Of a stretch of 41,806 bases of DNA, positions 15,883 through 19,942 are shown in pieces. The notes below the pieces were generated by a model. The model saw only the letters and a list, made by a program, of their open reading frames with translations, had not been told where the DNA came from and did not search any database. The stretch is from Candidatus Anstonellales archaeon (GTDB taxonomy: Archaea > Micrarchaeota > Micrarchaeia > Anstonellales > CG1-02-47-40). Both the position numbers and the translations under genes were made by a program. The stretch lies in NCBI GenBank assembly GCA_038869735.1, contig JAWCQO010000008.1:1-41806 (forward strand), given 5' to 3'. Position 1 is the stretch's first letter. Each line of letters starts with the position of its first letter.

Positions 15883-15940
15883 CTTGTTTGAAAAGACAAA
15901 CAGAATGGATTTTATATTTTGTGCATGTGAATTTATTTTT

Positions 15941-16264
15941 ATGAGAGAAGACGTGGTGTACCCCCTTCTTGCGCTCGTTATCATGGTAGTTATAGCAATA
16001 ATGGCATACCACTTTTTAGAAGGGTGGGATTTCTTAACGTCAAGTCTCTATGCAACGGCGACTGTGACGACAATTGGGTATAGTGAAGTTAGCCCAAAAA
16101 CGCTCTATGGAAAGGTATTCACAATAGTTTTTATGATAGGGGGAGTTGCCACAGGATTCTATGCTCTTATACGGCTGTCTCATTTCTCCAAAGAGACGTT
16201 TGAAAAAAGATTTAGAAAAATAGCAGAAAAGTTAGAAGATATGGATGAGAGAAAGCGCGTATAA
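15941..16264 (+). CDS. small two-helix potassium-channel-like protein (Ion_trans_2)
   Basis: Two membrane helices flank a pore loop, the minimal KcsA-type layout. Helix 1 is ~residues 5-26, the pore helix and filter 33-50, helix 2 58-77, followed by a basic cytoplasmic coil (KETFEKRFRKIAEKLE). The filter reads TVTTIGYSE where typical channels have T-V-G-Y-G-D: the second filter glycine is Ser48 and Asp is Glu49. Ion selectivity is therefore uncertain. The frame is open from 15884, right after the tRNA. The ATG at 15941 is preferred because the first helix begins just after it. Four copies would be needed for a pore. Only 107 residues. Confidence 0.75.
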   Translation: MREDVVYPLLALVIMVVIAIMAYHFLEGWDFLTSSLYATATVTTIGYSEVSPKTLYGKVFTIVFMIGGVATGFYALIRLSHFSKETFEKRFRKIAEKLEDMDERKRV

Positions 16265-17659: not shown

Positions 17660-18349
17660 TTAGAAAAGTGAGTAATGCATGTCTATGTTTACAAAGTTTA
17701 CCTTCCTCAAAAACTCAACTTTAGATGCAACAGTTGTAAGGAAGTAATAACTAACGGCTATACCCCCTGCAAACACCAATCTTTCTAATATGACCCTTAG
17801 GATCCCCACCTCAACTAACCAGTAATAGGGTGTCGTATTGAATGTGTAAATCCAGATTGTTCCGCCAACTGCATGTGCGCTGAACGTTGCGCCAAGACTC
17901 CGCAAGAAAATATTGTTTGGGAGCAACATTGAAATGAGTGGGATGAACCAGAGAAGTGAAAACTGCCATGCTTCTGAGCCAACAGGATGTAGCACAAACA
18001 GCACTATGCAGACAAGGGGAACAATAGCGCCTACTTTTATCTTTCTTGAATACAGAGAAAAGTAGATAGTTGCAAATACCATGGGGAGAAAAAGCAAGGC
18101 GGATTGAAGTGTCAAAGCCTTTGAATTAAAAATAAATGAAAAGACTTCTGCAGCCAAAATAACCATCGAGCCGAGGCCAGGACCCAAGAAACCGCCTATA
18201 GTGGGACCAAAAAACTGGAAAAGTGTGAAAACTCTTTCTGACCCTACAACTTTAAAGACCGGGATATTGTCGGCAATGGCAACTAAAGCTACAAATGACA
18301 AAATAATACCTATGCTTTTTGGGTGCAGATACTTTCCAATCTCCACCAT
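17660..18349 (-). CDS. membrane protein resembling an ECF-transporter S component
   Basis: About six hydrophobic segments in 229 residues, with the glycine-rich turn FGPTIGGFLGPGLGSMV after the second segment and LGATFSAHAVGGTIW near the end. That layout is like substrate-binding S components of ECF vitamin transporters, but I cannot name the subfamily. The ATG at 18349 has GGAGGTTGAG just before it and is clearly the start; a TTG at 18364 is also open. It starts 25 bases after a gene for a free-standing domain found in dihydropteroate synthases, so a pterin or folate-type substrate is a reasonable guess and no more. No ECF energising ATPase is in the window. Confidence 0.6.
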   Translation of the reverse strand: MVEIGKYLHPKSIGIILSFVALVAIADNIPVFKVVGSERVFTLFQFFGPTIGGFLGPGLGSMVILAAEVFSFIFNSKALTLQSALLFLPMVFATIYFSLYSRKIKVGAIVPLVCIVLFVLHPVGSEAWQFSLLWFIPLISMLLPNNIFLRSLGATFSAHAVGGTIWIYTFNTTPYYWLVEVGILRVILERLVFAGGIAVSYYFLTTVASKVEFLRKVNFVNIDMHYSLF

Positions 18350-18374
18350 TATCTCAACCTCCAACTGTTTTTTT

Positions 18375-18764
18375 CTATAGCTTATATTTTTTATTTTTTA
18401 TGATTTGGTCTATGTCATCCACTATGCCTTCATATTCACTCCTCTTTTCGCCCATATAATAACCCTGCATTCTCATTTTTGCCTGAAGTTTCGTAAACTG
18501 TGCTATTGTACCCATCAAAAGCACGTCTGTCTTTTCCTTTGCGCAATTTACAGTATACTGCGACACGGTTGCATCTCCTCCTTCAGCAATCATCTCCTGT
18601 TTTAGGATATTTGCTACTGCGTTGCGAACGTTGTGAAGTTTTATACACACAAAAACAGCTTTAGGAGCCATTATTTTTACACAGGCGTCCGAAACGTCTA
18701 TTTCTTTTATTGCGTTGGCTGCTTCTTCTACAGTATTAAATTTAAGTTCCTTTGGGTTATACAA
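18375..18764 (-). CDS. free-standing DHPS-associated N-terminal domain protein
   Basis: The 129 residues resemble the extra N-terminal domain in dihydropteroate synthases of some bacteria and archaea: PKAVFVCIKLHNVRNAVANI, ILKQEMIAEGGDATVSQYTV and KTDVLLMGTIAQFTKLQAKM match its typical run (KA-F--IKL-NV, ILKQEML--GGEAAV, TDVLLMGT--Q---L). The TIM-barrel synthase itself is missing; the next gene is a membrane protein instead. The function of the isolated domain is not established to my knowledge. It heads a two-gene unit with the S-component-like protein. Confidence 0.65.
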   Translation of the reverse strand: MYNPKELKFNTVEEAANAIKEIDVSDACVKIMAPKAVFVCIKLHNVRNAVANILKQEMIAEGGDATVSQYTVNCAKEKTDVLLMGTIAQFTKLQAKMRMQGYYMGEKRSEYEGIVDDIDQIIKNKKYKL

Positions 18765-18829
18765 AAAACTCCCTTCCTAAAATAGGACAACAATAATAAT
18801 AAATGTTGCGGGCAACCAAATACGGACTT

Positions 18830-19018
18830 ATGCAAGTTATCATTGACGAAAAAAAGAAAAAAATCAAATTTTCAGGAACAATTGAACGACTTCTCAAAAA
18901 ACTTAAGTTAGGGCGAGAAACTGTGGTTGTAAAAGTAAATGGGAAGCTTGCCCCAGAGAATATGAGATTAAAGGGGGAGGAAAAAGTAGAGATAATAAAA
19001 GTAGTATTTGGGGGTTGA
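18830..19018 (+). CDS. ThiS/MoaD-type ubiquitin-like sulfur carrier (TtuB-like)
   Basis: A 62-residue beta-grasp protein: two N-terminal strands (MQVIIDEKKKKIKFSG), a helix (IERLLKKLKL), then strands VVVKVNGK and VEIIKVVFGG. It ends in Gly-Gly, the tail activated as a thiocarboxylate in this family. The gene abuts the thiolase gene with no gap, so it is most likely the sulfur donor for that enzyme, as TtuB is for TtuA. The frame is open from 18803, but the ATG at 18830 begins directly with the first strand. The E1-like activating enzyme is not in the window. Confidence 0.8.
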   Translation: MQVIIDEKKKKIKFSGTIERLLKKLKLGRETVVVKVNGKLAPENMRLKGEEKVEIIKVVFGG

Positions 19019-19942
19019 ATGAACAACGCTCTAAAGTGCCACAAGTGCGATAGGGAAGCCACCGCCTATCTTATATCTCTTAATATTAATCTTTGCAAAA
19101 ACCATTTTACAGAATATTTTGAGAAAAAATTTTTTAGAACAATAAGAGAGTTCGAACTGATTAAAAAAGATGAAACGGTTGCGGTAGGCCTTTCCGGAGG
19201 TAAGGACAGCTCAGTTATGTTATATTGCCTCAAAAAGTTGCAAAATATCTTTCCGTTTAAATTGGTTGCAATCACCGTTGATGAAGGAATAAGGGGGTAT
19301 AGGCCATCTTCGCTTATTCTTGCAAAAAAACTTTGCAGGAGACTTGGAATTCCACTTAAAATCGTTTCTTTTAGATCATATATAGGAAAGAGCCTGGATG
19401 AAATAGTCAAGAGAAGAAAGAGACAATCCTGCTCATTCTGTGGGGTTTTTAGAAGGTATCTGTTAAACAAAGCTGCAAAGGAAATAAGTGCAGATAAGCT
19501 TGCGATAGGACACAATTTAGATGATTTTGCTCAGACTGCGATTATGAACATAATACGAAATGAGCCTTCCAGACTTGCAAGGTTTGGCGTCAGAAGTGGA
19601 GTTTTTGAAGAGGGAGGCTTTGTAACAAGAATCAAGCCTCTTGCCAGATTGGGCGAAAAAGAGGTTGCTATTTATGCTCTTCTTCGTAAAATTCCACTAC
19701 ACATGAGGGAATGTCCATATGCCAGACATGCTCTCCGACAAAGAGTAAGAAAAATGATAAATGAGTTAGAGGAGAGGTACCCGGGTACCAAGCAACGAAT
19801 ATTTGCGAGCTTTCTTGATATCCAGAGTGCGTTGAAAAAAAAGTATGCTTTAAGAAAAAGCGCAATAAAACTCTGTAGATCTTGCGGCGAACCGAGTGGA
19901 GGAAGTATATGTATGAGTTGTAAAATGATTGAAAAAATCTGA
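19019..19942 (+). CDS. tRNA 2-thiolation PP-loop enzyme, TtuA/Ncs6 family
   Basis: Adenylates and thiolates a uridine in tRNA. The order is an N-terminal zinc site (Cys7, Cys10, Cys26, His29), the PP-loop ATP motif LSGGKDSS (58-65), Fe-S cysteines CSFCG (138, 141) and ECPYA (232), and a C-terminal zinc site (Cys286, Cys289, Cys298, Cys301). These are the marks of the TtuA/Ncs6 branch. Homologues act on U54 (TtuA) or the wobble U34 (Ncs6); the sequence alone does not say which. Start is the ATG right after the stop of the sulfur carrier. A run of six T (19953-19958) follows the stop. Confidence 0.9.
   Translation: MNNALKCHKCDREATAYLISLNINLCKNHFTEYFEKKFFRTIREFELIKKDETVAVGLSGGKDSSVMLYCLKKLQNIFPFKLVAITVDEGIRGYRPSSLILAKKLCRRLGIPLKIVSFRSYIGKSLDEIVKRRKRQSCSFCGVFRRYLLNKAAKEISADKLAIGHNLDDFAQTAIMNIIRNEPSRLARFGVRSGVFEEGGFVTRIKPLARLGEKEVAIYALLRKIPLHMRECPYARHALRQRVRKMINELEERYPGTKQRIFASFLDIQSALKKKYALRKSAIKLCRSCGEPSGGSICMSCKMIEKI

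Follow-up and report, generated by a model that had tools for sequence, protein, structure and literature searches.

The two-gene unit at positions 17660 to 18764 raises the question of why a domain related to the extra N-terminal part of a dihydropteroate synthase (DHPS) should stand alone beside a membrane protein that resembles the S component of an ECF transporter, and what the two proteins might accomplish together. The window, meaning the whole 41,806-nucleotide stretch of DNA that was analysed, is contig C8 of genome G000 of a Candidatus Anstonellales archaeon (884 kb, 97% complete). One relative, LFW-35, is Ca. Anstonella stagnisolia (PMC8561730), which puts the host within the Micrarchaeota, order Anstonellales. 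The upstream gene, here called D (18375..18764, minus strand), encodes a free-standing domain of 129 amino acids that we propose to be a flavin-dependent dihydrofolate reductase. Its open reading frame begins with TTG and is preceded by a strong Shine-Dalgarno-like sequence, AGGAAGGGAG (GGAAGGGAG, just upstream of the TTG; 18769..18778, minus strand), read directly from the DNA. The downstream gene, M (17660..18349, minus strand), encodes an S-component-like integral membrane protein of 229 amino acids, proposed from its open reading frame, structural model, Foldseek matches and folate linkage to be a folate importer. The mechanical call for M extends from 17660 to 18364 with a TTG start at 18364; however, a directly read Shine-Dalgarno-like GGAGGT (18357..18362, minus strand), 7 nt before the ATG at 18349, falls inside the TTG-started stretch, and hence the natural start is likely the ATG at 18347-18349, which gives the 229-residue protein and leaves a 25-nt gap after the D stop codon.

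Pfam and NCBIfam searches returned no credible match for D or M (for M, none at E up to 10), and a sequence search of the PDB with profiles of both proteins gave no match. An RNA-family search of the window found two tRNAs and no riboswitch or other RNA family, and a promoter search yielded no informative signal. Divergent from D lies a gene for a small ThiS/SAMP-like protein with a C-terminal GG (18803-19018, plus strand), followed by one for a PP-loop protein that is TtuA-like and has zinc-finger motifs (19019-19942, plus strand); these two neighbors are a probable tRNA 2-thiolation pair. The window also encodes, at 15884-16264 (plus strand), a 126-residue protein in which an Ion_trans_2 pore domain and a filter-like TVTTIGYSE motif are present.

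A sequence-only reading of this locus had matched the 129-residue protein to the extra N-terminal domain of some DHPS proteins, with no synthase attached, and both statements held. In a tblastn search of a plasmid collection, the archaeal domain aligned with residues ~4-112 of a 381-residue Sulfurovum FolP (34.5% identity, 3e-6), the N-terminus of which was the sole match to D outside archaea in that search, and a D profile scored 60 bits against the same N-terminus. Residues 121-377 of the Sulfurovum protein are DHPS by TIGR01496. D is a stand-alone ORF that is not fused to a synthase, and PF00809 (the Pterin_bind TIM barrel) found no match in it. The two domains have in common M32, K35, A51, N52, I53, K55, Q56, V67, C74, D80, L83, G85, T86, K96, and Q100, and the matching D residues are invariant or nearly so in the archaeal set. 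By sequence comparison, D is homologous to the N-terminal extension, ~110 residues long, of a bacterial (Campylobacterota) FolP.

This extra N-terminal domain was reportedly found by Levin et al. in 2007 to bind FMN, and its conserved residues are said to have been mutagenised in that work. According to a passage of PMC1971073 that cites Levin et al. 2007, Helicobacter FolP carries at its N-terminus a flavin-dependent dihydropteroate reductase, "DHFR2", so that the earlier statement that the isolated domain has no assigned role is outdated. Because the homologous Helicobacter domain is a flavin-dependent reductase (PMC1971073), D is by analogy probably a catalyst rather than the binding or regulatory partner that had been suggested, with the link from D to Helicobacter running through the Sulfurovum FolP and the literature.

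D was found in 19 of the 301 genomes of the phylum, a lower bound given that genomes were searched with one sequence; a search of viral contigs found no D. Most relevant to its role is the company it keeps. In three genomes of genus g109, D forms the C-terminal part of HPPK and adjoins a DHPS-FolB gene, an unusual folate synthesis cluster (the HPPK-D fusions lie at L018:1441-2274, L017:970-1836, and L020:1444-2316, with SHMT, ThyX, and FolC close by). In G097, D is a separate ORF immediately upstream of DHPS; G097 and the g109 genomes are the only ones in which D adjoins DHPS. None of the 19 D-bearing genomes carries dihydrofolate reductase (DHFR, PF00186), compared with 57 of 296 genomes overall.

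What, then, would such a domain find to reduce in the host? Family-by-family tests of G000 found none of DHPS (PF00809), DHFR (PF00186), or ThyA, while ThyX, SHMT, and FolC are present and an SHMT-FolD-FolC-MTHFS-PurN cluster (MTHFS being 5-formyl-THF cyclo-ligase) occupies G000:C1 ~24.9-29.4 kb. The host uses folate and is without the means to make it or to reduce it by the usual enzyme. Its ThyX (G000:C7 ~51,890-53,515; L149:3890-5518) is a 542-residue protein with two Thy1 domains; most of the Micrarchaeota genomes that were tested show this double-Thy1 arrangement as well, with two matches in one ~540-residue frame. Near-complete folate pathways have been reported for some Micrarchaeota orders in a 2025 study, and the sections of that paper on which we draw mention neither D nor a folate importer (PMC12892359).

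The pairing of D with M recurs well beyond this host. Among the 14 Micrarchaeota genomes that hold both genes, D and M lie side by side in the same orientation in 11 (G000, G001, G002, G003, G008, G019, G086, G098, G285, G286, and G287), spanning five families, and in G009 each lies at a contig end. The pairing is not chance, and both proteins carry invariant residues, those of M including W134, H159, W177, E189, and R190. M itself is far more widespread than D (77 of 296 genomes), and at 23 of the 67 M loci read with their flanks a folate gene was found in the flank. At 20 of the 67, representing at least five families, FolC or PurN lies within 160 bp of M or overlaps it, whereas only 1 of the 20 control stretches drawn from those genomes held any folate gene. 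Complete clusters, the genes of which were confirmed in representatives with Pfam and NCBIfam, are also seen: SHMT-FolD-FolC-PurN-M in G089, G091, and G092, SHMT-FolD-FolC-MTHFS-PurN-M-ThyX in G085, and ThyX...D-M-PurN-MTHFS-FolC-FolD-SHMT, with a gene for a ferredoxin-reductase-like oxidoreductase, in G086.

Gene content across the phylum, in a genome set that includes many incomplete metagenome assemblies, follows the same line. FolC is present in 52 of 58 genomes with M and in 8 of 22 without it (p 3.9e-6, a statistic that ignores relatedness), and M or DHPS occurs in 58 of 60 FolC-bearing genomes, a count that likewise takes no account of relatedness. M was found in 0 of 12 PF00809 genomes (p 0.025, relatedness again ignored) after removal of G098 and of G099, the latter a weak partial match; the G098 "DHPS" match was rejected, being methionine synthase MetH. 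M is tied to folate and probably belongs to folate salvage. The earlier interpretation is partly supported: the uptake of a folate-like cofactor gains support from the placement of M in or beside folate-enzyme clusters in many genomes and from its tracking of FolC.

We consider it fairly probable that D and M form a folate-salvage operon, in which M imports folates and D acts as a free-standing flavin-dependent dihydrofolate reductase. In such a pathway, M would supply a cell that is unable to make folate with the vitamin from outside, whether as folic acid, as dihydrofolate, or in reduced form, and in this lineage it seems to act with no ECF T component. FolC, for which the gene lies elsewhere in G000 and beside M in many relatives, would trap the folate by polyglutamylation, and D with reduced flavin would convert oxidised imported folate to tetrahydrofolate in place of the missing DHFR. 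Tetrahydrofolate would then supply SHMT, FolD, PurN, and ThyX. We infer here the substrate and direction of M, the flavin and the activity of D, and whatever contact the two proteins may make. Since the cluster includes a 5-formyl-THF cyclo-ligase, reduced folates may be salvaged too, which would account for the many M-bearing genomes that manage with neither D nor DHFR. Speaking against the reductase reading, ThyX produces no dihydrofolate, so that only a modest need for such an enzyme is expected.

The alternative that fares best accepts M as a folate importer and gives D another task, such as providing electrons or substrate to ThyX or reducing another pterin. Most genomes with M have neither D nor DHFR, and the prediction that genomes with M and without D would carry DHFR instead failed on the distribution of PF00186; M therefore does not require D, D is not the sole answer to a missing reductase, and dihydrofolate reduction may be non-essential. 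The best PDB fold match of the D model (pLDDT 93.9) is the flavin- and folate-binding ThyX, a weak match (E 0.07, TM about 0.6), and in G086 D lies close to ThyX and to the ferredoxin-reductase-like gene. However, comparison of D with ThyX showed no relationship in sequence, leaving the fold match as a hint only, and ThyX occurs in nearly all tested genomes whether D is present or not. D instead keeps company with DHPS, with HPPK, or with folate uptake, and no genome in which it was found also has DHFR. We regard a different task for D as rather unlikely, and a dihydrofolate reductase remains our preferred reading of this protein.

A second alternative, which was the view of the sequence-only reading, is that the substrate of M is a folate precursor, such as a pterin or p-aminobenzoate, with D serving as a binding, carrier, or regulatory protein. 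Some S components do bind precursors, for example hydroxymethylpyrimidine, and D is linked to pterin enzymes. Nevertheless, a search for the synthase elsewhere in the genome showed DHPS to be absent from G000, which could use neither pterin nor p-aminobenzoate by that route and yet has FolC and folate-using enzymes. The presence of M or DHPS in nearly every FolC-bearing genome is the pattern to be expected were M to deliver the vitamin ready-made, and the relatives of D are enzymes (PMC1971073). Import of a precursor appears quite improbable, and import of folate itself accords better with these observations.

The structural model of M bears on how such import might proceed. Foldseek comparison of the AlphaFold model (pLDDT 88.7) with the PDB returned as best matches nearly all ECF S components (RibU, BioY, ThiT, and FolT); the best 18 matches are vitamin or, in one case, metal ECF S components, with probabilities up to 1.00 and E-values of 0.02-0.6. 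The model thus supports an S-component-like fold for M, a resemblance of fold with modest E-values. Pfam and NCBIfam comparisons gave no sequence or profile match between M and the known S-component families.

A further question is whether M is tied to an ECF T/ATPase module. The host has one ECF operon, encoding an S-like protein, an ATPase, and CbiQ (G000:C1 ~101.1-103.3 kb; L098:4146-6258); its S-like membrane protein has 267 residues and no Pfam match. An ECF ATPase is thus encoded elsewhere in the genome, a point that the sequence-only reading had proposed to check, and the operon tracks missing riboflavin synthesis. The host genome lacks lumazine synthase (RibH), and non-cobalt T components occur almost only where RibH is missing (1/25 against 45/55, p 1.7e-11, ignoring relatedness); on this ground the host operon probably imports riboflavin by way of a new S component. 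A partnership of M with this operon is unsupported, since the host-type T component is missing in 31 of the 32 genomes that have both M and RibH, and M shows no profile similarity to the S-like protein of the operon. For the same reason, the co-occurrence of M and T first seen (36 genomes against 13 expected) was not counted as M needing T. No recognisable T component was present in 41 of the 77 M-bearing genomes (PF02361 or profile A4), and the lineage-specific T profile, A4, found no further T components. Given that the T module of the host resembles a riboflavin importer and that so many M-bearing genomes are without T, M probably works without an ECF module. In Ca. Anstonella (L099; G003:C2 169000-180000), the only CbiQ sits in a CbiMNQO-like metal transporter locus, as read by eye, and thus its T component does not represent a shared vitamin module.

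The same data make it very improbable that M imports riboflavin or FMN for D as a flavin-dependent client, the pair coupling flavin supply to a flavoenzyme: no single structure matches the fold of M better than T. maritima RibU, relatives of D use flavin, and the host is without lumazine synthase, but M is spread independently of RibH (32 RibH-positive and 26 RibH-negative genomes among those with M; p 0.61, ignoring relatedness), a distribution on which a RibU-like role was rejected, another S-ATPase-T operon in the host is almost perfectly complementary to RibH, and M adjoins folate genes rather than flavin genes.

A broader proposal follows the folate-salvage reading, and we put it forward tentatively: M may represent a new family of archaeal folate importers, S-component-like and ECF-independent, which in some lineages shares an operon with what would be the first free-standing flavin-dependent dihydrofolate reductase, the two replacing folate synthesis and DHFR. 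In many microbes that use folate enzymes, neither a folate importer nor a dihydrofolate reductase is known, and both gaps have been named for bacteria (PMC1971073). The D-M pair provides candidates in archaea for both. Read in this way, the pair would explain folate-dependent purine, glycine, and thymidylate chemistry in small-genome Micrarchaeota that do not make the vitamin, would show what these organisms must take from hosts or neighbors, and would give a functional name to two families outside the coverage of Pfam and NCBIfam.

Set beside the bifunctional Helicobacter FolP (DHFR2), D is a homologous domain with the conserved set of M..K, ANI-x-KQ-E/D, V, C, D..L.GT, and K..Q residues, and both proteins are found where FolA is absent; D differs in that it stands alone, in a genome that has no DHPS at all, and in having a membrane-protein partner, and elsewhere in the phylum it is fused to HPPK. 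With the dihydrofolate reductases FolA and FolM, D shares the proposed reaction, but it is an unrelated protein whose proposed chemistry uses flavin rather than NADPH directly. M is similar to the ECF S components FolT, RibU, ThiT, and BioY in predicted fold and size, and to FolT in its folate-linked gene context, whereas it has no detectable sequence or profile match to them and the T component is missing in about half of the genomes with M. Solitary S-type transporters do exist, namely BioY without ECF and the VUT/YhhQ family. Like these, M is S-component-like without a recognisable T component; unlike them, it belongs to another family and has another proposed substrate, folate.
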